From positions 1 to 28,720 of IMG/VR virus record IMGVR_UViG_3300008448_000457: a stretch of 28,720 nucleotides of DNA; one strand, given 5' to 3'. The position numbers were made by a program, and so were the translations under genes. The notes below the pieces were generated by a model, which had not been told where the DNA came from, did no database searches, and was given only the letters and a program-made list of their open reading frames with translations. The DNA comes from a virus. Shown here in pieces: positions 5,389 through 19,771 of the stretch (positions are counted from its first letter, which is position 1; each line of letters begins with the position of its first letter).

Positions 5389-6039
5389 TTACCCAGTGCG
5401 CGTGAACGTGCCGCTACTGTTAAAAGTATGCACAGTATAGGGTCCAGAGGTCGTTATGGTCCCGCCCGTGGCTACCATCGTGCCAGAAACGTAGGTGACG
5501 ATGCAGAAACCGTTGGGGCCGTCAGCGCCGGGGTTAAGCGGCGCGCCCCCGGAACCGCCAGAACCGGAGTTAACAGAAGACCCGTTTATGGCCAGCGTGA
5601 TGCCGGACCCACCAGCACCCGGAGTACCAGCCGCATCGCCATCAGCGCCATCGCTACCAGCCCCCGCACCGCCGCCACCGCCGCCCGAAGTTCCGGTCCC
5701 CCCAGCACCACCAGAAAAAGCACCACCACCAACAGCGCCGCCAGCACCGCCGTCAGTGTCGCCATCAACACCGCCACTGCCGCCTAGCGAAGTAACCGTA
5801 AACGCGCTGGACGAGCCGCCGGTAGAACCTAGGGAGCCGGTAGCCCCAATAGTGATCGTGTAGCTGCCCACAGTGACTGTTTTTGTGGTGTCAGTTTTAG
5901 CTTGGCCCGCGCCGCCACCGCCGCCACCGGCTTGTAGAGAGGAACCGCCCCCACCGCCGCCGCCAACCAAGCTGAACTGGATAGCAACGTTGGTAGCGTA
6001 CGGCACGCCGCCGATGAAAGAGTTGACAAAACTGCTCAC
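5389..6039 (-). CDS. Glycine-rich tail-fibre/adhesin-like protein (216 aa)
   Basis: A 216-residue protein, over a third glycine, with runs such as LVGGGGGGGSSLQAGGGGGG near residues 24-43 and a Gly/Ser/Ala/Asp middle. It starts with GTG at 6039, overlapping the stop of the upstream fibre gene by 4 nt (GTGA). Gly-rich domains of this kind form polyglycine-helix sandwiches or flexible tips in phage adhesins. The C-terminus reads GTITTSGPYTVHTFNSSGTF, a beta strand that in other Gly-rich proteins (including the one at 16015-16800 here) comes before the Gly core rather than after it. Direct coupling to the repeat-rich fibre suggests the two act together at the tail tip. Receptor binding is inferred. 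Confidence 0.75.
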   Translation of the reverse strand: MSSFVNSFIGGVPYATNVAIQFSLVGGGGGGGSSLQAGGGGGGAGQAKTDTTKTVTVGSYTITIGATGSLGSTGGSSSAFTVTSLGGSGGVDGDTDGGAGGAVGGGAFSGGAGGTGTSGGGGGGAGAGSDGADGDAAGTPGAGGSGITLAINGSSVNSGSGGSGGAPLNPGADGPNGFCIVTYVSGTMVATGGTITTSGPYTVHTFNSSGTFTRTG

Positions 6040-7964: not shown

Positions 7965-8217
7965 CGCGGAACACTTCCCTGATTGTGTGGGTTCGCTGGA
8001 CAGAAACGACAGCCGCTGCGGCTTTTGCTTCTTCGTACGCGGCTGACTGGGCATTGATGGTTTCCTGCATGCGGTCTTTTTCAGCGGCCACACGGCGCAT
8101 GACTTCAGCTTCCCGGGCTTTGCACTGCCAATCCCGCACGGTCCAACCGCCAAAAGCTGCCAGCAAAACTGAAGCGCCAACGACGTAGATCAGGTAGGGC
8201 TGCAGCAGCCTGAGCAT
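7861..8217 (-). CDS. Inner-membrane spanin (Rz-like)
   Basis: A 118-residue protein with one N-terminal membrane segment (about residues 3-26, LIYVVGASVLLAAFGGW), then a charged Ala/Glu-rich coiled coil (REAEVMRRVAAEKDRMQETI), then the C-terminal signature TIREVFRDVPVDASCAAPP and LLDAVEDTNNAIS. The last two segments resemble the end of Rz-type i-spanins (VPxxxxCxxPxxxxxLLxxAxxxxN). The i-spanin bridges the periplasm and pairs with the nested lipoprotein encoded at 7695-7964. The start overlaps the stop of the 159-aa virion gene by 1 nt (TAATG). The presence of both spanins implies a host with an outer membrane. Confidence 0.85.
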   Translation of the reverse strand: MLRLLQPYLIYVVGASVLLAAFGGWTVRDWQCKAREAEVMRRVAAEKDRMQETINAQSAAYEEAKAAAAVVSVQRTHTIREVFRDVPVDASCAAPPAVGGVLLDAVEDTNNAISSAAR

Positions 8218-8696
8218 TACGAAATCCTGATTATCGCTGTGTTGGCGCTGTTAACAGGGAACGTGACAGTGAACGTGTTGTTGGTAGAGGACTTGTCACC
8301 GCCAAAATCCAGCACGCACACGGCTGGGTTTGTAAGGGGATTGTTATCCGCGCCGTTAGCGGAAGGCGTGCTGTTATAGATCAACGCCCCCGCTGCCGTG
8401 ATATAGGTCGCCGGAAAGGACACTGTGGCGAAAGACGTGAACCCGGTGCCCTGACTAGCCCCCGACTGCACGCTAGAGGTGGACACTCCAAGATTAGTCA
8501 ACGCTGCGCCGCCAGCCGTATACCCCGGAGTCTGGACTTCGTTGGTTGCGGTATACGCCGTAGTGTCCGCTCCCAAGTCAGCTGCGGACGTGTACAGCGC
8601 GATCTTGAACGTGTCGCCGCCAGTAGCCCGGAAGTCGTGCACGCCAAGCAACACCTCGCCCTTGAAACTGGTGCACATGGTCTGGGAAATAGGCAT
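8217..8696 (-). CDS. Virion-associated protein of unknown function (159 aa)
   Basis: A Thr/Ser/Ala-rich beta-type protein. It opens with MPISQTMCTSFKGEVLLGVH, then FKIALYTSAADLGADTTAYT, NEVQTPGYTAGGAALTN and a C-terminal PAVCVLDFGGDKSSTNNTFT. The opening (MPISQxMCTSFKxELLxGxH...DTFKIALYTSxAxLxxxTTxY) is one I recognise from structural regions of many uncultured phage genomes, always without assigned function. It lies between the connector-like gene and the spanins, with the connector stop 9 nt upstream. A tail-surface or head-decoration role is possible; nothing in the sequence decides it. Confidence 0.75.
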   Translation of the reverse strand: MPISQTMCTSFKGEVLLGVHDFRATGGDTFKIALYTSAADLGADTTAYTATNEVQTPGYTAGGAALTNLGVSTSSVQSGASQGTGFTSFATVSFPATYITAAGALIYNSTPSANGADNNPLTNPAVCVLDFGGDKSSTNNTFTVTFPVNSANTAIIRIS

Positions 8697-9365: not shown

Positions 9366-10202
9366 TTAACTAACCCGCTCTAGAGTAAGGACGCCCATTA
9401 CTCTACCCTTCCTCGCTACAACGTGGCTTACTAACGCTTTGCTTACGCCGAGTTGTTCGGCGGCGTGCTTTTGGGACTTGAAATATACATCAAGTTCGCG
9501 GCACCAGATAGGCTTATGTTTCGACTCCGCTATACGCTTTATTGTGTCCGGAGACATCGTTCTCGCGGCCATGTTAGCACGGGAACGAGCTTTGGCCTCT
9601 GGCGTGTTTTGCGCGCGCGTTAGACTAACGATGCGCGCAGCGCGCTTCACCGGGTCACTCCACGCAGCTACTTGCTTAGCGCGCGTTTCCTCGGGGGGTG
9701 CACGCAGTTTTCCTCGCACCGTGTACTCCGGGCCATAAGTCGTAGGCTCTTTTCTGGGGCGGGCCGCGCGCGCTTTGCGGGTGTTCTCTTTCGCTTCGGG
9801 GGTTTGGACGCCCGCGCGTATAGCGGGGATTACTCTCTCGCGCCACGCAGGGTCAGCCCACCGTTTTCTAGCTAGGGCGGACAACTTGGCGCGTGTCGCC
9901 TCGGTTCGCGGCCCCGGAAACCCAGCCCCGCCACGAGTCGCGTTATACACGGGCGCATAGTCGGCTATAAGCTGCTGCTCCGCCCAGTTAAGGGCATCGC
10001 GGTCGAACGCGTGGAACACTTCTTCAAAAACGAAAGCGTCGTACCCGGCGGTTGCCACCGCGCGATGAAACTTCGTCGTCGGTTTCATAGCCGATATTTT
10101 GTGCGCGTAGACTCGTGTGTAGTACTTTTGGTTTGTCTGGCCAACGTACTGCTCACCCGTAAGGGTGTTAGTGGCTACGTAGATGCTTCCATAACGCCGC
10201 AC
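9366..10202 (-). CDS. GIY-YIG homing-type endonuclease with NUMOD-like DNA-binding region
   Basis: The frame opens at GTG 10220. GTG 10202 has AGGT about 6-7 nt upstream and places the catalytic domain at the very N-terminus, so it is preferred (278 aa). RYGSIYVATN and, 11 residues later, QYVGQT form the GIY-YIG pair (here SIY...YVG). A helix with Arg (TRVYAHK) and NWAEQQLIADYAPVYNAT, carrying the likely catalytic Glu, complete the nuclease domain. The middle is very basic, with repeated short motifs (TRAKLSALARKRWADP, PEETRAKQVAAWSDPVKR, TPEAKARSRANMAARTMSP) resembling NUMOD3. The C-terminus (IWCRELDVYFKSQKHAAEQL then GVSKALVSHVVARKG) looks like a NUMOD1-type helix-turn-helix. It interrupts a run of structural genes at the 5' end of the connector gene, as homing endonucleases do. 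Confidence 0.88.
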   Translation of the reverse strand: MRRYGSIYVATNTLTGEQYVGQTNQKYYTRVYAHKISAMKPTTKFHRAVATAGYDAFVFEEVFHAFDRDALNWAEQQLIADYAPVYNATRGGAGFPGPRTEATRAKLSALARKRWADPAWRERVIPAIRAGVQTPEAKENTRKARAARPRKEPTTYGPEYTVRGKLRAPPEETRAKQVAAWSDPVKRAARIVSLTRAQNTPEAKARSRANMAARTMSPDTIKRIAESKHKPIWCRELDVYFKSQKHAAEQLGVSKALVSHVVARKGRVMGVLTLERVS

Positions 10203-10210
10203 GGTCAGAC

Positions 10211-10348
10211 CTAGCAGCACTTCGGGTTGAAGTTGGTGCCCTTGGTAGCAGCGCCCGAACCACGGATTTTCATGGTCTGGGTGTTGGCCACCTTGTTAGG
10301 GTAGCCGTTGGTTTCGGGCACAGGGGCTTTCTTCGGAGCGGTCTTCAT
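10211..10348 (-). CDS. 45-residue conserved phage protein ending in Cys-Cys
   Basis: ATG 10348 with AAGG about 9 nt upstream begins 45 codons ending in TAG. The protein opens MKTAPKKAPVPETNGYPNKV and continues with TQTMKIRGSGAATKGTNFNP before KCC. The core MKxRGxGAATKG is one I recall from tiny proteins in many phage genomes. It begins 11 nt after the stop of the zinc-ribbon gene, which supports it as a real operon member. The end RGSGAATKGTNFNPKCC resembles the Cys-terminated tag of the small proteins at 12149-13004 (RGDGMATKGKTRGREC in one of them). Its last 10 nt overlap the longest possible GIY-YIG frame but not the preferred GTG 10202 start. Function unknown. Confidence 0.7.
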   Translation of the reverse strand: MKTAPKKAPVPETNGYPNKVANTQTMKIRGSGAATKGTNFNPKCC

Positions 10349-10359
10349 GGAGCAGTACC

Positions 10360-10857
10360 TTACGGGATGGGTGTCAGGATGATGTATTCGTTGTTGAGCG
10401 ACAGAGGCTCCCCAGATAACAGCAGCAAATCCGGAACCACTGGCGACCCGGAAGACGTCACAGTAACTGAACCTACAGCACCTCTACCTTCCAGTGAGTT
10501 CTCTACCAAGGTTACACCCAACGCGTTTTGTTGGCTATAGTCCCCGGTAAGCAGGCCTACAGGCCCCCAACCCCACTGGATGTCGCGGCTACCCCCAGAG
10601 GGCATGCCGTTGATGTTCAAACCGCTCTGCAGGTACGAGTTGTCGGGTCTTGGGTTTCGCAGCGCCTGCGGGTCGTTGACCGGATAGAGCCCAAGCTGCA
10701 GCTGCGGCTGGTCGGGGTCCCAGCACGTGGGGCAGCACAGGATGTTGGTCAGCTTCGTCTTGATGACGAGGGGCTTCAGCTTGCGCAGCGGGTAGCGTTG
10801 ACCGCAACGGTCACACTCCGAGATAGCCTTTTTGCCGGAAGCAAACTTACTGGGCAT
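10360..10857 (-). CDS. Zinc-ribbon structural-region protein (165 aa)
   Basis: The N-terminal 50 residues hold two CxxC knuckles: C15-x2-C18 (ECDRCGQRYP) and C42-x2-C45 (CCPTCWDPDQPQ), a probable zinc ribbon. Between them are 23 residues with several Lys. The rest is beta-rich and Gly/Ser/Asn-containing, ending PLSLNNEYIILTPIP. I recall proteins with CDRCGxxYxLxxLK...CxxCWDPDxPQ in aquatic phage genomes, without known function. It starts 7 nt after the gp4-like adaptor gene, with AGGT about 5 nt before the ATG. A virion or assembly role is inferred from position; a DNA- or protein-binding ribbon is equally possible. Confidence 0.75.
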   Translation of the reverse strand: MPSKFASGKKAISECDRCGQRYPLRKLKPLVIKTKLTNILCCPTCWDPDQPQLQLGLYPVNDPQALRNPRPDNSYLQSGLNINGMPSGGSRDIQWGWGPVGLLTGDYSQQNALGVTLVENSLEGRGAVGSVTVTSSGSPVVPDLLLLSGEPLSLNNEYIILTPIP

Positions 10858-10864
10858 GGCAGAC

Positions 10865-11569
10865 CTAGTAGCTCACACGGGGGGCTAGCCGAAGCGAAGC
10901 CTTCTCCCGATCTTCGTCCGCTGCGTGCTGCCACTGCTCTTCGTACACAGCCTTGAGCATGTCCACGCGGGGCAGGGCTTCAGGGATTTTCATGGCCATG
11001 TAGTAGGCCAGCCCAGCCACCATGCAGGGCAGGAAGCGGAAAGGGATGTCCTGCGTGTTGTCGCCGTTGCCCGCGTCTTGGATGCGACGAAGCCGCCAGT
11101 ACACAAAAGTGTAGTAGTTGCTTTGCTCCGGCGTCGGCCAGACGTTGATGGTTGGGTAGACCACGCCCGCAGGGCCAGTGGCCCCGGACTGGCGGTTAAT
11201 CCACACCTGAATGGGTCGCCCTTGGGCGTTCTTGTTGGGGATGCTCGAATAGGTATCGACGCTGATGCGGCTGATGTTGATGTCAGTCTGGTTAGCGCCA
11301 GTGCTGGTACGAACCACGTGGTCCAGCAGGTCGATGGTATCCACCGGAAGGTTATACGAGATCGTGCCCTGCGTCAGCGGGATAGACCCCTGCTCCACGG
11401 TCCAAAGGTTGATACCTCGGTTAGCCCATTCGATGGACAGCAGGTTCAGGCTGCGCCGCGCCGTACGCAGGTCATAGCCCGAGCGCACTTCTGCGCCACA
11501 GCGCTCGTAGGCCTCTTCCACGAGGTCTAGCACAGACAGGTTGAAGGTTGTGGTGCCGGAAGTAGTCAT
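10865..11569 (-). CDS. P22 gp4-like head-tail adaptor / tail accessory protein
   Basis: A 234-residue protein with the opening VLDLVEEAYERCGAEVRSGY followed by DLRTARRSLNLLSIEWANRG. That pattern (xxIxEEAxERxGxExxxGYDLRTARRSLNLLxxEWANRGINLW) is the signature of the gp4-like family, which binds below the portal, closes it after packaging and forms the platform for the tail. The middle is beta-rich (QGTISYNLPVDTIDLLDHVV), and the end is helical and charged (MLKAVYEEQWQHAADEDREK). Its start overlaps the stop of the 131-aa basic gene by 4 nt (ATGA). With the gp10-like protein at 3193-5385 it supports a short-tailed, P22-like virion. Confidence 0.85.
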   Translation of the reverse strand: MTTSGTTTFNLSVLDLVEEAYERCGAEVRSGYDLRTARRSLNLLSIEWANRGINLWTVEQGSIPLTQGTISYNLPVDTIDLLDHVVRTSTGANQTDINISRISVDTYSSIPNKNAQGRPIQVWINRQSGATGPAGVVYPTINVWPTPEQSNYYTFVYWRLRRIQDAGNGDNTQDIPFRFLPCMVAGLAYYMAMKIPEALPRVDMLKAVYEEQWQHAADEDREKASLRLAPRVSY

Positions 11570-11961
11570 CTGAACTGTGCCGTTTTCTTGGCGATGCCTT
11601 TAGGCTGTTTGACAAACTGCTTGCCCGCCTTGGTGCCTTCGCGCTTGGCCTTGGTTGTAGCGGCATATTCAGAAGGCGTCAGCGCCTCCCGTGCTTTCTT
11701 AGGCAGATACCGCTCGCCCGTTGCGTCTGCCCCTTGGGTGGAGGGCTTGCCTGACTTAGTGCCCCAGTCCTCTTTGCCCCATTTGGACAGAGACTTCTGC
11801 GCTTCAGTTTTCGGGCCGCTGTAGCTCCCGCCGGACTTCTTGTAGCGCTGGGTAGCCAGCTGGGCCTTGCGGGCAGACCACTGGCCCGGGTCACCGCCCT
11901 TGCCGCCAGCTTTTACGCTGGCGACGATGCGCTTCCATTTGGGTTCGTCGGAGCGCGCCAC
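11566..11961 (-). CDS. Basic protein resembling DUF5872 (131 aa)
   Basis: A very basic, Lys/Gly/Ser-rich protein starting with GTG 11961. The motif order is WKRIVASVKAGGKGG, PGQWSARKAQLATQRYKKSG, LSKWGKEDWGTKSGKPSTQG, ATGERYLPKKAREAL, SEYAATTKAKREGTK and a tail KQPKGIAKKTAQFR. I recognise this as the family I know as DUF5872 (from memory), found in phages and in large eukaryotic viruses, with no established function. The charge suggests nucleic-acid binding. It lies in a cluster of six small basic genes and overlaps the gp4-like gene by 4 nt. Its GTG start overlaps no coding sequence but follows the stop of the 60-aa gene by 1 nt. Confidence 0.8.
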   Translation of the reverse strand: MARSDEPKWKRIVASVKAGGKGGDPGQWSARKAQLATQRYKKSGGSYSGPKTEAQKSLSKWGKEDWGTKSGKPSTQGADATGERYLPKKAREALTPSEYAATTKAKREGTKAGKQFVKQPKGIAKKTAQFR

Positions 11962-11962
11962 A

Positions 11963-12145
11963 TCACTTGCCCTTCTTGAAGCCCTTCAGCATCTCGGCGA
12001 AGCGGGCGCGCTGGCCCATCTTGCCCGGAGCCTTGGTAGCGGCATCCAGCTTCTTGGCCGGGATGGTCTCGCCCTTCTTGACGCCCATGGATTTACGCAG
12101 GGCACCGGGCTTCTTGATGGCGTCTTTGATGAAGTTCTTTTTCAT
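11963..12145 (-). CDS. Small basic protein (60 aa)
   Basis: A 60-residue Lys-rich protein (MKKNFIKDAIKKPGALRKSM then GVKKGETIPAKKLDAATKAP, ending AEMLKGFKKGK). The sequence pattern (FIKxAIKKPGALRKxxGVKKGExIPxxKL...RARxAxxLK) is one I recall from many short phage proteins; no function is known to me. Helical amphipathic N- and C-terminal parts flank a Pro/Gly hinge. It starts 3 nt after the TAG of the repeat-containing 72-aa gene; the GAG of that gene's terminal codons lies 9 nt upstream and may serve as its weak ribosome-binding site. Net charge of about +15 suggests DNA or membrane interaction, by inference only. Confidence 0.75.
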   Translation of the reverse strand: MKKNFIKDAIKKPGALRKSMGVKKGETIPAKKLDAATKAPGKMGQRARFAEMLKGFKKGK

Positions 12146-12148
12146 AAC

Positions 12149-12211
12149 CTAGCACTCATGCCCGCGAGTTTTGCCGCGCATGGCCATGCCATCAGCGCGA
12201 ACGATACCACC
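12149..12211 (-). other. Cys-terminal tag, copy 3 (shared C-terminal motif)
   Basis: Encodes [20 protein letters not shown] and the stop. It aligns without gaps to 12371-12433 (GGVVRGDGMATKGKTRGREC, 15 of 20 identical) and with one residue missing to 12747-12806 (GGVV-GDGCAIRGKTKGKNC). The preceding residues of the three proteins are unrelated. Confidence 0.85.
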
Positions 12212-12367
12212 GTGCTTCAGCCCTTTCATGGACTGCTGGCGGTCGTGTTTCTTGTCCATGGAAGATGCCTCCCACTGCTTGTGGCTCATGCCACGCTTCT
12301 TGGCGAGCTTCATGTCCTGCGCCTTGTCCTCGGCGGAACCTTCCCACTCTTTGCGAGACATCTTCAC
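12149..12367 (-). CDS. 72-aa basic protein with two 24-residue repeats and the Cys-terminal tag
   Basis: GTG 12367 has GGAG 9 nt upstream; ATG 12361 two codons later is an alternative. Residues 3-26 and 27-50 are two copies of the same unit: M-S-x-K-x-W-E-x-S-x-x-D-K-x-x-D ([18 protein letters not shown], then [19 protein letters not shown]). The protein ends with [20 protein letters not shown] at residues 53-72, the tag shared with the two genes upstream. Charged residues dominate throughout and no membrane segment is seen. The repeat looks like a helical hairpin or coiled-coil building block. The GGAG ribosome-binding site lies in the Arg-Glu codons that end the upstream tag. Function unknown; I recall similar MSxKxWExS repeats only from other phage genomes. 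Confidence 0.75.
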
Positions 12368-12370
12368 GGC

Positions 12371-12433
12371 TTAGCACTCCCGTCCGCGAGTTTTGCCTTT
12401 GGTAGCCATGCCGTCGCCGCGCACGACGCCGCC
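12371..12433 (-). other. Cys-terminal tag, copy 2 (shared C-terminal motif)
   Basis: Encodes GGVVRGDGMATKGKTRGREC and TAA. Its codons for Arg-Glu-Cys contain GGAG, which sits 9 nt before the GTG start of the next gene, so this part of the tag also serves as a ribosome-binding site. Confidence 0.85.
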
Positions 12434-12745
12434 GGACTTGTAGTTGGTCTTTGGTTTGCGCGCAGGCTTCTTCTTGGGGGCCATGCGGTCACCAGCCTTG
12501 CTGGCGAAAAACGGCATGTCGCCGCCCTTCATAACACCGCCGACCTTGCCGCCGCGTTTCATTCCCGGACCTTTAGCCGCTGCCACGACTTCTTCCTCGT
12601 CGTCACCCTTGCGGCCCAGTCGGCCCAGCAAGGCGGGGATACCCCCCATCAGGCCGCTAGTCAGACCTTCGCCAGTAACCAGCCCGGCCAGCGGGGAGAT
12701 ATCACCCAGCTTAAAGCCACGGGACTTCTTGGCTTCGTTTTCCAT
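12371..12745 (-). CDS. Small basic protein with the Cys-terminal tag (124 aa)
   Basis: The frame is open from 12805, but that part lies over the upstream gene's tag. ATG 12745, 1 nt after the upstream TGA, gives MENEAKKSRGFKLGDISPLA and 124 residues. Residues 15-42 are hydrophobic and Gly-rich (AGLVTGEGLTSGLMGGIPAL), a possible membrane-associating or oligomerising helix. An acidic patch GDDEEEVV follows, then a basic, Gly/Met/Lys-rich part (MKRGGKVGGVMKGGDM, APKKKPARKPK). The protein ends GGVVRGDGMATKGKTRGREC, the best example of the tag. Its terminal codons contain the GGAG used by the next gene. No known family is recognised. Confidence 0.7.
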   Translation of the reverse strand: MENEAKKSRGFKLGDISPLAGLVTGEGLTSGLMGGIPALLGRLGRKGDDEEEVVAAAKGPGMKRGGKVGGVMKGGDMPFFASKAGDRMAPKKKPARKPKTNYKSGGVVRGDGMATKGKTRGREC

Positions 12746-12746
12746 A

Positions 12747-12806
12747 TCAGCAGTTCTTCCCTTTGGTCTTGCCACGAATAGCACAGCCGTCACCCACAAC
12801 TCCACC
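12747..12806 (-). other. Cys-terminal tag, copy 1 (shared C-terminal motif)
   Basis: Encodes GGVVGDGCAIRGKTKGKNC and TGA. Relative to the other copies it lacks the Arg before Gly-Asp-Gly and has Cys instead of Met, so it is the most diverged of the three. Confidence 0.8.
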
Positions 12807-13004
12807 CTTGTTAAAGCGGGGGCGTCGGGGCCTTTCTCGGAGGATTTCGCTTACGCCGGACTCTCCGTACCGTTGATCTGGTCTGACAAAGGCCGGGCCT
12901 GCCTCACGCATAAACGTAGGGCTGCGGGCTAGCAGGGAGTCCACCCGGTGCATCCCGCGACGGTCCAGAATGTTGCCGCCACGACGGCCCTTTTCCCATT
13001 TCAT
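12747..13004 (-). CDS. Arg-rich small protein with the Cys-terminal tag (85 aa)
   Basis: An 85-residue Arg-rich protein: MKWEKGRRGGNILDRRGMHR, then SPTFMREAGPAFVRPDQRYG, SEILRERPRRPRFNKGG and the ending VVGDGCAIRGKTKGKNC. The last 19-20 residues match the tag of the next two genes, with Gly-Asp-Gly-Cys-Ala replacing Gly-Asp-Gly-Met-Ala. It starts 1 nt after the stop of the 84-aa gene and its stop is 1 nt before the next start, so the four genes are tightly coupled. Charge suggests nucleic-acid binding. No family recognised beyond the tag. Confidence 0.7.
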   Translation of the reverse strand: MKWEKGRRGGNILDRRGMHRVDSLLARSPTFMREAGPAFVRPDQRYGESGVSEILRERPRRPRFNKGGVVGDGCAIRGKTKGKNC

Positions 13005-13005
13005 G

Positions 13006-13260
13006 TCAGCACCGCCAAGCTCTTAAGCTTTTATTGATGCGGCTGTTGGGGTCGTTAGCCGTTTTAGCGCTGGTCAACTTCTTCTTCATACCCGTCATTC
13101 TCGCACAAAATGACTTTTTGCGCGGGCCACCTTCTGGTTGCGGGGCCTTCAGCCCCGGCTTTCCCGGGTTAGCGCGGTTGTAGGATGCACGGCCTTTGGC
13201 GTTGAGGCCACCGGCCTCCGCCTTACCTTCCTTGCGGGTCCACGCTGGGGTCTTGGCCAT
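13006..13260 (-). CDS. Small basic protein resembling DUF6321 (84 aa)
   Basis: An 84-residue basic protein with TPAWTRKEGKAEAGGLNAKG, RASYNRANPGKPGLKAPQPE, PRKKSFCARMTGMKKKL and the end NKSLRAWRC. I recognise the motif series (PAWxRKEGKxxxGGLNxKGRxSY...LKxPQ...KSFCARMxGM...LRxWxC) as the family I know as DUF6321 (from memory); its function is uncharacterised. It ends in Cys, like its tagged neighbours, but lacks the RGDGMA tag. It follows the glycosyltransferase gene by 6 nt and starts the run of six small basic genes. Confidence 0.8.
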   Translation of the reverse strand: MAKTPAWTRKEGKAEAGGLNAKGRASYNRANPGKPGLKAPQPEGGPRKKSFCARMTGMKKKLTSAKTANDPNSRINKSLRAWRC

Positions 13261-13266
13261 TGCCTT

Positions 13267-14001
13267 TCACTCCGCTGCCATGGCTGGCTGCACCATCATC
13301 GGGTACAGAACGTCGTTGCCGAAGTCGCCCATATACTCTTGGACGCCCATGTGGCCGAGCTTGATGGTCGGGTCCACCCACACCTCGTAGCCGTGTTCAC
13401 GAGCTCGGTCGCAGAACAGGAAGTCCTCGCCCATGTAGCCTTCCGCCGTGACCTTAAAATCAAAGACGGCTGACAGCGTAGCGTCAGTACGTGGGTCGTA
13501 GTAGTTCCACTCGGGGTGGGCGGATACCAGCGTCTCAAACACGTCACGGCGCACCAGCATGAAGGCAGTGGCCACGCGCTTGGCGCGGACGAGACCCATG
13601 GCATCCATGGTCAGGGCGTTATTCTCGTCGTGGTCCAGAGCCATGATGTAGGTGGCCTTGGTCTCGCGGACGCGCGGCACGCCAGCCACGATGCCCTTCT
13701 TGGGGTCTGACCCCCAAGCCATAAGGCGGTAGATGTCCTCGGGCACGAAGTTGATGTCGGAGTCGATGAACAGCAGGTCGGTGCAGTCGGTCTCAAGGAA
13801 GTCCTTCACCAGCAGATTGCGCGCGCGCGACACCACGGAGCATCCGCAGATGCTGCCAATCTGGATGTTGATGCCGTGTTGCGGGGCGGACTGCGCGAAG
13901 CGGGCCAGCGAGATAGCCAGCTTCAGGGAGACTTTGAAGTCGTAGGCGGGCAGCGCAATAAAGATGCTGCGACCAGCAAGGTTGTACGTGTTCTCGGCCA
14001 T
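13267..14001 (-). CDS. GT-A type glycosyltransferase (244 aa)
   Basis: A 244-residue protein with the layout of a metal-dependent GT-A fold enzyme. An N-terminal strand (SIFIALPAYD) is followed by helices, the segment SICGCSVVSRARNLLVKDFL, and then LLFIDSDINF with a D80-S-D82 motif at the expected place for binding divalent metal and the nucleotide-sugar. Later come GIVAGVPRVRETKATYIMAL, AFMLVRRDVFETLV and GEDFLFCDRAREHGYEVWVD, a typical acceptor-side region with Glu-Asp, and IKLGHMG with a candidate third metal ligand His. It would transfer a sugar to a protein, DNA or cell-surface acceptor. AGGA lies about 7 nt before the ATG. It is embedded between a large structural gene and the small basic proteins, so a virion protein or host surface glycan is a possible substrate (inference). 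Confidence 0.82.
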   Translation of the reverse strand: MAENTYNLAGRSIFIALPAYDFKVSLKLAISLARFAQSAPQHGINIQIGSICGCSVVSRARNLLVKDFLETDCTDLLFIDSDINFVPEDIYRLMAWGSDPKKGIVAGVPRVRETKATYIMALDHDENNALTMDAMGLVRAKRVATAFMLVRRDVFETLVSAHPEWNYYDPRTDATLSAVFDFKVTAEGYMGEDFLFCDRAREHGYEVWVDPTIKLGHMGVQEYMGDFGNDVLYPMMVQPAMAAE

Positions 14002-14008
14002 GTTTTTC

Positions 14009-16006
14009 CTACACTAATGCGCCGACGCGGAACCTGTAGCGCTGGTTGCCAACATAAGTGCCCTCATACACCTGTTTCGTGCCGGAAACCCAGTTGACAT
14101 ACATCTTGCGGTTTCCCTCTGTGCGGTCCTGTGCAAACATCTGCGAGGTCGCGCACAGGGAATAGTCGCCCGGCGGGTCAAACGGGTAGTTACCGAGCAG
14201 CAGCATCTCAAGGATGATGTCGGTGTCGATCACCCCGTGACGAACCTGCATGCGCTCTTGGCCGGGCCACGTAGAACCCGGAAGCGCCGCTGGCTGCTGC
14301 ACGCCATCCTCGTACCCAATGACAATCTCGGTCTGCGTCGGCACCTTCATGCGGTTGATCGTAGTCGTCGGGAGCATAGCGGAATAACTGTCCGCGACCC
14401 CGATCTGCGCGCCCACTGTGCCGCTCATAACAGCCCGGGTTACGCCCGCAGTTTGTAGGTTCTCGCCGGTTTGGAACGTACCAACCACATCCTTGACATA
14501 CCACTGACCTGCCGCGTTCGACCCTGCGTAGCTGCCTGTGGTGGGGGAGGGGGCCACGACGAGAACAGCCGTAGCACCGGACGTCGCGCCAGTGATTGTA
14601 GTGCCTTCTGCCACATTAAGGTTGCCCGAAGTGTAGGCCATCGTCCGCCCGACCTTGTGGGTGTGCAACACAGTGACGCCGTCTGCATCCAGCGTCTGCA
14701 CTATAGTAACCTGCCCGATGCGAGTGGGCGTTAGGACGGGCGGACGGTACACATCGTACACCGTCGTCCACACCAGCGAAGAGCCGCGCAAACGAGTTCC
14801 AACAGTGGAAGCCTTTTGGTCCGCCCCGCCGTCCATGGTTAGGGACGAAGACACCATCTGCATCAGGCCGTGGCCAAGCCCGTACAGTTCATAAGTAGAG
14901 GTGGCATCGGCAAAAAGGCCTACCTTGATAGCAAACTCGGCGGTTGAAGGCTGGTCACCAACAAACGCGCCGCCCCCGCCTTCGTCAGAGTAGAGCCAGC
15001 TATAGAGGTAGTCCTTGCCGCTGATACTGGCTTTGTGGGAGTTCACAGCGGGAGCGTAGGCGTTCTGAAGCGACCCTTGCGACATCGCACGGCCCATGTC
15101 GTACATGACACAGTAATGGGTGTCTTGGTTCATCCGCTTGCCGGTGACCAGCGAGGTGTCGTCATACTGGACGGCCATAAGCTCGACCAGCCACGTCCTG
15201 TCCGTCAGTTTTTGCGCAAACACAGGCTCGTCTACAGTAGGCCCTTGCAGGGCTAGTGCTGCGTCTTGCTCGGTTGCCGTCGTCAAAGCCGTAGACGGGT
15301 ATTCGACGATGTTGAGGCGACCAGAAGCGTTACGTACGACCTCTACCCACTGCTTGTTTGCCCACAGGCCTGCGGCTGACAGTGCGGTAGTGTCGGTCTT
15401 ATCGTAAATAGCGGTAGCCGCCAGCACATCTGCCGTGTTGCCGAAGTTGCGGATAGCCAGCGAAGCCGAACCAAAAGGCTTGTCCCCCTGCGCTTGGAAC
15501 GCAAACCGCACGTTGGTTAGGTTGGACGGAAGTTTAGTGTCTGGAAACGCTAGTTTAGCGACTACAGTCGCCCCCGTGCCCGATACCCACTCAAGCTGGA
15601 CGTACGTGCCCTGTGCTGGGAAGGCGGGGTAAACAAGGACATACTTACCACGCGCAACGGACGGCTGGATTGCAAACGGGGAGTTTAGTTGGATAGCCCC
15701 GGCGGGCAGACTATTGCCGTTGGGCATAACGATTTCGGTGGCGGCACCGGAAAACACCCCCGCGATGGTTGCGGTCACAATGGTTCCGCTCTGGCCTTCG
15801 GCGTTGGTCGCGCCTGCCAAACCCGTGAAAATCTGGCCTACACCCGCTGACGCGACAGAGTAACCCGTCTGCGGGGTCATCGGGTAAGACCGGGCCGTGG
15901 GGGCCGACACCGTGCAAAATACGAGCGGTGCGGGGGCCGGTATCCCCAATGCGGCCTGCACGGCGGCTAGTTCTGCGGGGATAGAGCCGTTTATCTCGTA
16001 GGACAT
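14009..16006 (-). CDS. Large structural protein, probably tail or head fibre (665 aa)
   Basis: A frame opens at GTG 16027, but ATG 16006 (8 nt after the upstream stop) begins MSYEINGSIPAELAAVQAAL and is preferred; neither has a strong ribosome-binding site. The protein is beta-rich, with many Thr/Ser/Val/Gly, regular aromatic residues and no membrane segment. Landmarks: IVMPNGNSLPAGAIQLNSPF, YVQLEWVSGTGATVVAKLAF, LYSWLYSDEGGGGAFVGDQP, TTVYDVYRPPVLTPTRIGQV, and a C-terminus YVGNQRYRFRVGALV. I do not recognise a family. The position next to the Gly-rich adhesin-like protein and a glycosyltransferase suggests a surface-exposed virion protein. Confidence 0.75.
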   Translation of the reverse strand: MSYEINGSIPAELAAVQAALGIPAPAPLVFCTVSAPTARSYPMTPQTGYSVASAGVGQIFTGLAGATNAEGQSGTIVTATIAGVFSGAATEIVMPNGNSLPAGAIQLNSPFAIQPSVARGKYVLVYPAFPAQGTYVQLEWVSGTGATVVAKLAFPDTKLPSNLTNVRFAFQAQGDKPFGSASLAIRNFGNTADVLAATAIYDKTDTTALSAAGLWANKQWVEVVRNASGRLNIVEYPSTALTTATEQDAALALQGPTVDEPVFAQKLTDRTWLVELMAVQYDDTSLVTGKRMNQDTHYCVMYDMGRAMSQGSLQNAYAPAVNSHKASISGKDYLYSWLYSDEGGGGAFVGDQPSTAEFAIKVGLFADATSTYELYGLGHGLMQMVSSSLTMDGGADQKASTVGTRLRGSSLVWTTVYDVYRPPVLTPTRIGQVTIVQTLDADGVTVLHTHKVGRTMAYTSGNLNVAEGTTITGATSGATAVLVVAPSPTTGSYAGSNAAGQWYVKDVVGTFQTGENLQTAGVTRAVMSGTVGAQIGVADSYSAMLPTTTINRMKVPTQTEIVIGYEDGVQQPAALPGSTWPGQERMQVRHGVIDTDIILEMLLLGNYPFDPPGDYSLCATSQMFAQDRTEGNRKMYVNWVSGTKQVYEGTYVGNQRYRFRVGALV

Positions 16007-16014
16007 GGCGGTGT

Positions 16015-16800
16015 TTAGCCAACCCACTCAATGAGGACACACCCGGATAGGCCAGCACCGCCTGCTGCGTTTTGACCCCCTCCTCCGCCGCCAGCACCGT
16101 ATTGGCCAGCTGCAACTGCTGCACCAGCAACTGTCGCGGTGCCGCCAACGCCGCCAGTGCCCATGATAGAACAACCGCCACCGCCACCACCAGCATTAGC
16201 CGCGCCACCAGCAACGCCGGACGGGTTGAGGAAGGAACGGGCTGAACCCCCGGCAAACGCGCCAATGGACCCGCCACCGCCACCACCTGTGCCAGTAAGG
16301 TGAAACCCTACAGCGCCCGGAACACCACCTGCAGCACCTGCTGCGGAACCCACACCGCCAGCCCCGCCGAGGCCAAGAGAGGTCATCGAGAACCCAGTTG
16401 CGCCGGAACCCCCGCCAGCGCCGCCATTAGCCACTAGACCAGCCCCGCCGCCCACACCGGGGAAAGCTACCGGCACTTGGACAAGAGCGCCTGTGATGCT
16501 GGAAGCTGTGGCGGAACCAGCGCCGGGGGCACCAATAGCCCCGCCCGCCGACCCTGCGCCAACAGTGATGGTCAGAGTAGAACCGGGCGTAACAGAAACC
16601 GGGAAACGATATACCGCTGCCCCCGCACCGCCTCCGCCGCCTCCGCCACCCGTAGCATGGCCGCCTCCGCCGCCCGCACCGCCGCCGACCAACGTCGCAA
16701 TAACCTGCGAGACCCCGGCGGGGACAACAAACGAACCGGAAGCCGTGAACAGTTGCGACTTGGCTTTGGCGGAGGTGGCGGAAGAAACAGGGAAGCTCAT
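16015..16800 (-). CDS. Glycine-rich adhesin-like virion protein (261 aa)
   Basis: The N-terminal part reads SQLFTASGSFVVPAGVSQVI, then ATLVGGGAGGGGGHATGGGG and further Gly runs. The pattern (FTxSGxFxVPAGVxxVxVxxxGGGGGGG) is that of the glycine-rich domain found in phage tail fibre tips and other virion proteins, where polyglycine strands pack into a sandwich. About 40% of residues are Gly, with single hydrophobic residues between runs. It ends LSGCVLIEWVG, the usual closing strand. GAGGG lies 6 nt before the ATG, which is 1 nt after the stop of the 140-aa gene. Receptor binding or head decoration is inferred. Confidence 0.8.
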   Translation of the reverse strand: MSFPVSSATSAKAKSQLFTASGSFVVPAGVSQVIATLVGGGAGGGGGHATGGGGGGGGAGAAVYRFPVSVTPGSTLTITVGAGSAGGAIGAPGAGSATASSITGALVQVPVAFPGVGGGAGLVANGGAGGGSGATGFSMTSLGLGGAGGVGSAAGAAGGVPGAVGFHLTGTGGGGGGSIGAFAGGSARSFLNPSGVAGGAANAGGGGGGCSIMGTGGVGGTATVAGAAVAAGQYGAGGGGGGQNAAGGAGLSGCVLIEWVG

Positions 16801-18862: not shown

Positions 18863-19771
18863 TTAGGCCCCAGCCGAGCCGTACATGCCCAGCGGGTCCG
18901 ACCAGCCGAAGCTGTAACGCTCGCGGCTCTTGTACCGGACGTTGCCGGTGTCGAAGTCGCCGTCCATCGAGTTGGCCATCGGAGCACGAACGAAGTGCTT
19001 CAGGCCGTTCGGCACGTCGGTAGTCAGGAACCACGCATCGACGTCGGTCAGGAAGTGGTTGACCGCATAGCCGCCCGGGATGGAGCCGTTCGACTTCAGC
19101 GCGTTGATGTCGTTGTCGGCGGTGCCGACACGCAGTTCGGTCTCAAGGAGACGAGTAGCGACGAACATCAGGGCCGGGGGGATGATGAGCTTCTTCGGCT
19201 TGGCAGCGATCAGCAGCCCGCGTTCATCCGACCAGCCAGCGATCTGAATAACGGCGGCTTCCAGAGAAGTCTCGTTAAGGTCAGCCGCAGTCGACGGGAT
19301 GTTCGAGTTGACGCCGCCCGAAACCAGCGGGTGCGAAGCGCTGAACAGGGCCACGCCGTCACCACCGAGGTAGTTGGCAGAGAAGCCGTTGTTCAGGACC
19401 GACGCAGCCTTGGTCTGCTTGGTGTACGCCATGGCCCGAGCCAGAGCCTTGGTGTAGCGCGAAGACAGCGAAGCGTAGAGGTTGTCCTCCACGGCTTCCT
19501 CGGTCAGCGAGAAACCCAGTGCGATGGTCTCGTGGTTGTAGCGGGCGGTGAAGGCTTCCTGCGCGTTGTCATACGCGATGGCAGAACCTTCGTTCTTGAC
19601 CGGAGCAGCCGAGAAGCCCGACAGCTTGGTCTCTTCCTCGAAGGAACGCTCGGACGACTCCGTCTCGAAGATTTCCTTATGCTCTTCGCCGTACCGCTTG
19701 TACTCCAGACCGAACAGAGCGTTCAGTCCCGGAAGCAGTTCTTTGAGGAGTTGTGCGCGTGAAATAGCCAT
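18863..19771 (-). CDS. Major capsid protein (HK97-like)
   Basis: A 302-residue protein. The N-terminal helix (SRAQLLKELLPGLNALFGLE) is followed by a Glu-rich stretch (FETESSERSFEEETKLSGFS), then SLTEEAVEDNLYASLSSRYT, a spine-helix-like region (KALARAMAYTKQTKAASVLN), FSASHPLVSGGVNSNIPS, and the C-terminal IIPPALMFVATRLLETELRV and GFSWSDPL-like ending RERYSFGWSDPLGMYGSAGA. This is the pattern of HK97-fold capsid subunits in podovirus-like phages. The start has a consensus AAGGAGG about 10 nt upstream, one of the best in the window. It is preceded by scaffold, a 157-aa protein and a candidate decoration protein, and followed by a strong terminator, as expected for the most abundant late product. 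Confidence 0.88.
   Translation of the reverse strand: MAISRAQLLKELLPGLNALFGLEYKRYGEEHKEIFETESSERSFEEETKLSGFSAAPVKNEGSAIAYDNAQEAFTARYNHETIALGFSLTEEAVEDNLYASLSSRYTKALARAMAYTKQTKAASVLNNGFSANYLGGDGVALFSASHPLVSGGVNSNIPSTAADLNETSLEAAVIQIAGWSDERGLLIAAKPKKLIIPPALMFVATRLLETELRVGTADNDINALKSNGSIPGGYAVNHFLTDVDAWFLTTDVPNGLKHFVRAPMANSMDGDFDTGNVRYKSRERYSFGWSDPLGMYGSAGA

Follow-up and report, generated by a model that had tools for sequence, protein, structure and literature searches.

Three adjacent small proteins with a shared C-terminal tag

The window, the whole 28,720-nucleotide stretch of viral DNA analyzed here, encodes on its minus strand three consecutive small proteins: tagged protein 1 (12747..13004, 85 aa), with C-terminus GGVVGDGCAIRGKTKGKNC, tagged protein 2 (12371..12745, 124 aa), with C-terminus GGVVRGDGMATKGKTRGREC, and tagged protein 3 (12149..12367, 72 aa). 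The tag comprises 19 residues in protein 1 (12750..12806) and 20 residues in both protein 2 (12374..12433) and protein 3 (12152..12211). These open reading frames were found on the minus strand at the coordinates claimed in an earlier note on this DNA, and each of the C-termini quoted there abuts a stop codon. Tagged protein 2 starts with the ATG at 12745, a longer start being present upstream at 12805.

We compared the last 19 residues of all ORFs of at least 60 codons in the six frames of the window (237 ends). The three tag pairs show 14, 11 and 11 identities, and the runner-up among the approximately 28,000 pairs shows 8 of 19. Exactly three ORFs of the window bear the motif, at the C-terminus in every case; the shorter pattern G[KR]T[KR]G has four matches in six frames, three of them at the tag C-termini and the fourth in an unrelated frame. 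The bodies of the three proteins are unlike one another, and searches of PHROGs and Pfam with these bodies matched no family. The AlphaFold2 model of tagged protein 2 is disordered (pLDDT 54).

The tag cluster is bordered upstream by the gene for the major capsid protein (MCP; 18863..19771, minus strand; PF25209, E = 4e-12; phrog_371, E = 1.5e-20) and downstream by that for an SU10-type head-tail adaptor (10865..11569, minus strand; PF24175, E = 1.5e-9). Also on the minus strand of this interval are the genes for three other small proteins, namely a DUF6321 core protein (13006..13260; PF19846, E = 4e-19) and a basic KKPGALR protein (11963..12145), both untagged in the window, and a further basic protein of the same cluster (11566..11961) with a weak DUF5872 match under the curated cut-off. 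Elsewhere in the window, a 672-aa protein without clear family (14009-16027) is encoded between the capsid and glycosyltransferase genes, and a reading frame with GIY-YIG-like residues (9366-10220) lies in or beside the small-gene region. Two very glycine-rich proteins (16015-16800 and 5389-6039) resemble receptor-binding tip domains, and these two likenesses, to GIY-YIG proteins and to tip domains, are read from sequence only.

Sequence and conservation of the tag

Scanning IMG/VR with a DNA pattern that represents the tag core in degenerate form yielded at least 120 loci. The tag consensus is GG-x(3-9)-R-[AG]-D-G-[IC]-A-x-[RK]-G-K-T-[KR]-G-[RK]-x-x-COOH. The search pattern accounts for part of the invariance of D3, G4, G9, T11 and G13, and 3-9 residues usually separate the last GG from the core. 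Among the IMG/VR matches listed, the protein ends exactly three residues past KTxG in 198 of 248 (~80%), and in most of the others a further 9-15 residues follow, with an MxxGGxC end of their own, which leaves the motif within about 15 residues of the terminus. The final residue is V in 50%, C in 21%, I in 11% and L in 7% of 303 tags; the suggestion that the terminal Cys serves as a disulfide or thioester handle fails because that residue is not conserved.

Most tags also match G-x4-G-K-T, a pattern again partly imposed by the search. We rejected a Walker A motif of a P-loop NTPase as an identification, as the tag sits at the chain end without a confident AlphaFold2 fold and only the GxxxxGK[ST] string matches. 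No known structure or family was found for the tag consensus or profile, and no family in NCBIfam, Pfam or PHROGs matched two or more of the 123 tagged proteins.

In 129 pairs of homologous tagged proteins, mean identity is 83.3% in the tag versus 61.5% in the body. The invariant residues are drawn from all their codons, indicating selection at the protein level. Tagged protein 2 and its counterpart in L135, the nearest relative of the window (adaptor 100% identical), depart from this conservation in degree: 8 of 16 tag codons change residue, although the core residues are kept.

Tags are also more alike within a genome (identity 0.734) than in permutations (0.692 +/- 0.009). Their codon identity is 0.47 within genomes, against an expected 0.37 and a between-genome value of 0.41; recent copying therefore explains little of this similarity, although shared ancestry of the tags may be a partial cause, given that codon identity is slightly above expected. 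Several loci scored as tag-negative have variant tags: in L249, two unrelated proteins (10224-10640 and 12979-13455) share an RGKTRA end in which the synonymous codons differ, and in L209, two unrelated proteins (8101-8316 and 8301-8594) have KMY ends. A division into two tag classes, with RGDG and RADG tags in each genome, was tried and discarded, since the anticorrelation at position 2 is gone in samples not selected by tag.

The tag is a modular unit on unrelated bodies

Among the IMG/VR matches listed, BLAST distributed 245 tagged ORFs into 123 body groups, which differ in body length. The bodies are small and basic, averaging 139 aa, a pI of 9.9 and 19% K+R, and the N-terminal domain of one tagged family is common to PHROGs named virion structural protein. 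The motif [FYM]xxGG occurs in tagged proteins 9.3 times per 1000 residues versus 0.45 in shuffles (~20-fold), and is also present at their N-termini as KRKFxEGG.

Gain of the tag by a recognizable protein can be followed in DUF6321. Nearly all of its 145 distinct copies have a conserved WxC end; 140 are untagged, and in the remaining five (in L097, L253, L292, L046 and L261) the tag is added past the final Cys. In the pairs compared, tagged and untagged bodies are 90-96% identical. In the AlphaFold2 prediction for the L097 protein, computed from a smaller alignment without rows from GenBank phage records, the tag is disordered (pLDDT 30-46). A literature search for DUF6321 found no papers. The KKPGALR protein likewise has a homologue with the tag at its end (L004:2-250).

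Comparison with L135 reveals further rearrangement. The homologue of tagged protein 1 (2208-2582) contains a 39-aa insertion just before the tag, which is still terminal; tagged protein 2 has a homologue at 2582-2974, L135 lacks tagged protein 3, and an extra ORF (1820-2206), with HNH-like residues in its sequence, lies between the DUF6321 gene and that of tagged protein 1. Taken together, these data show that the tag is a modular unit carried by unrelated bodies and fixed at the C-terminus.

The tag is restricted to one phage lineage

At least one protein of the window's head/neck module was present in 119 of the 120 listed, motif-selected loci, the exception being a 1.3 kb fragment, and the SU10-type adaptor was present in 106 of them. 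The earlier note had also proposed that the neighboring glycosyltransferase recognizes the tag; this reading fails because relatives of that protein sit in few loci (13 of those listed, versus 106 for the adaptor). Bacterial genomes (GTDB) gave five matches, of which one, on the MAG contig L125, was real. The type-A tag had zero matches in 50,697 GenBank phage records, a search for which a positive control for short queries was run.

The tag is thus restricted to one lineage, whose relatives include Pelagibacter HTVC023P-type phages and DSL-LC04, a metagenome-assembled genome (PMC10611076). The portal of the window is closest to those of Pelagibacter phage HTVC023P, Planktothrix and Synechococcus phages, DSL-LC04 and Roseobacter phage CRP-902. 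Since the type-A tag is absent from the relatives HTVC023P, HTVC027P and CRP-902 in the GenBank phage set, it is non-essential for this virion type. Tag carriers form an abundant, mostly uncultured group of lytic, apparently podovirus-type aquatic phages. An open-access literature search found no paper describing the tag and no virion proteome for this lineage, and proteomic or structural evidence placing a tagged protein in a virion was likewise not found.

Tagged genes are confined to the MCP-adaptor interval

To avoid selection for the tag, we also sampled loci fetched by their adaptor or by their MCP; the position counts that follow are of contigs, some of them overlapping, with ORFs called without a gene finder. 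In 28 of 30 contigs spanning both genes, between one and six tags lie between MCP and adaptor. No tags were found in the 437 kb upstream of the MCP or on the other strand of these 30 loci, and the five tags located after the adaptor are all in a separate protein of ~57 aa. In adaptor-fetched loci, 94 tag matches lie upstream of the adaptor versus 2 elsewhere in 424 kb, and 37 of the 44 loci with at least 2.5 kb upstream of the adaptor contain tags.

Within this interval the tagged genes form a tightly spaced tandem array, with a start codon at most 12 nt from the stop in 288 of 303 tags. The codon for Gly-13 is GGA or GGG in 67% of those 288, compared to 3-12% at Gly-9 and Gly-4, and the 3' end of the tag also supplies the closely following gene with a Shine-Dalgarno-like sequence.

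Related and deviant motifs

Downstream of the adaptor, the window encodes a 45-aa protein (10211..10348, minus strand) whose C-terminus, MKIRGSGAATKGTNFNPKCC, bears the related motif RGSGAATKG. Most loci encode small-protein relatives with RGxGAATKG near their C-terminus at a distance of 1.2-1.9 kb downstream from the adaptor, and these relatives resemble the tag in pattern and in distance to the end. In the related phage HTVC023P, two unrelated small proteins have common Gly/Arg-rich C-termini, RGGGAAVRGMGFKGVF and RGVGAAIRGHKFIGVK, which are like the tag but differ from it in having no GKTxG part; their spacing and RGxGxAxRG pattern suggest that they are related to it. Grouping the tag, the HTVC023P motifs and the RGxGAATKG motifs into one superfamily is unproven. 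In DSL-LC04, a small protein (L130:22471-22815) ends in GYAKGGLVTSKGQGRVIRSKKTRIC, another C-terminus combining GG with basic residues.

The earlier note had set internal occurrence of the motif against its being a tag. Such an occurrence was found marginally, in the separate, conserved protein of ~57 aa that is encoded past the adaptor (L193:2161, L246:6725, L248:14975, L250:12633, L268:10890 and L282:9579, all on the plus strand), in which the tag core lies near the N-terminus (MAYTRSADGIAKKGKTEGKNLG). This protein shows that a free C-terminus is not absolutely needed.

A putative docking peptide for head-associated proteins

Unrelated bodies, the gain of the tag by DUF6321, its C-terminal position, its co-variation within genomes and its confinement to the MCP-adaptor interval strongly support the proposal, already made in the earlier note, of a common destination or partner, and that note's idea of a cargo signal, which would place the proteins in the virion, fits as well. 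The explanation that we favor, to which we give an even chance, is that the tag is a C-terminal docking or targeting peptide through which small, basic accessory proteins reach the head as it assembles. Small, basic and mostly disordered accessory proteins would be made from the genes between capsid and adaptor, probably late in infection, and their shared tail would bind a single structural partner in the head under assembly, which could be the scaffold, the capsid interior, the portal or the adaptor vertex. Different tagged proteins would thereby be built into the same particle, placing them in the virion, and might be ejected from it.

The same genomic position would also suit proteins docking outside the head or at the neck, as decoration or collar components (cement, portal-adaptor junction or tail), inasmuch as the tagged genes directly precede that of the head-tail adaptor and the RGxGAATKG protein is encoded just after it. 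We consider such a location unlikely, if worth bearing in mind, because the disordered and basic bodies are more like internal proteins and searches detected neither a collar nor a decoration domain. It is likewise unlikely that the tag is instead a basic GxxxxGKT loop binding nucleic acid or phosphate, which would tether the proteins to the packaged genome and let them enter with the DNA: tags rich in K, R and G, their frequent match to G-x4-G-K-T (partly search-imposed) and the basic bodies (pI 9.9) are in line with this, but the near-invariant Asp and the fixed distance to the C-terminus would be superfluous for simple basic binding, the tag has no fold in the AlphaFold2 prediction (pLDDT 30-46, L097), and a protein partner is indicated both by the confinement to the MCP-adaptor interval and by the co-variation of tags within genomes. 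As conserved C-terminal tails of short length can act as degrons or processing sites, a signal for processing, modification or turnover is conceivable (with the Cys being modified, or a protease or the glycosyltransferase recognizing the tag); with a variable terminal residue, few loci carrying glycosyltransferase relatives, and no single enzyme gene found to accompany the tag beyond the shared structural module, we regard it as improbable.

Two further readings appear very improbable to us. That the tagged proteins are full-length paralogues, with bodies diverged past recognition and the tag as their best-kept end, would account for the somewhat greater likeness of tags within than between genomes and for the GG motifs recurring along the bodies; however, it is already largely refuted by the DUF6321 and KKPGALR proteins, which have clear untagged homologues and carry the tag as an extension, and by the 123 body groups of differing lengths among the matches listed. 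Equally remote is a conserved end that represents a DNA or RNA element (a ribosome-binding site, coupling signal or recombination site) and no protein signal. The proximity of nearly all tags to a start codon and the GGA/GGG bias at Gly-13 are what such an element would produce, yet the invariant residues use all codons, the tag is kept where no close downstream gene exists, and a ribosome site fails to explain most of its 16-20 residues.

Comparison with known targeting systems

The T4 internal proteins bearing a capsid targeting sequence (CTS) are small and basic, and the CTS has been proposed as a general loader of varied proteins into heads (PMC9026906). As with the CTS of IPI, IPII and IPIII, one short terminal peptide is found here on differing small basic phage proteins. 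In contrast, the T4 CTS is N-terminal, spans ~10 residues and is removed by the prohead protease gp21, while the present tag is C-terminal and unrelated in sequence. No separate prohead protease was recognized among the head-module proteins of the window that were tested; the MCP of the window falls in Pfam capsid families and also matches profiles named "major head and protease" and "head maturation protease".

Family 1 encapsulins load cargo into an HK97-fold shell through short C-terminal peptides, of which N-terminal versions occur too (PMC8346489). The tag resembles these cargo-loading peptides in being a short C-terminal peptide on unrelated proteins with an N-terminal version, and differs from them in sequence, in its phage assembly context and in its association with many small basic proteins, among which no enzymes were recognized. 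By analogy with encapsulin cargo loading, we think it quite possible, if somewhat short of an even chance, that these phages have a modular cargo-loading code of their own, in which a C-terminal peptide is tuned in each genome to one structural partner and accessory virion proteins are added, dropped or swapped.

If the tag does target proteins into virions, it would provide a simple sequence rule by which accessory proteins associated with the virion could be predicted in abundant phages with otherwise unannotated small genes, as well as a possible short C-terminal handle to load proteins into phage heads. Furthermore, C-terminal targeting, as in encapsulins, would become testable for phages with HK97-type capsids.
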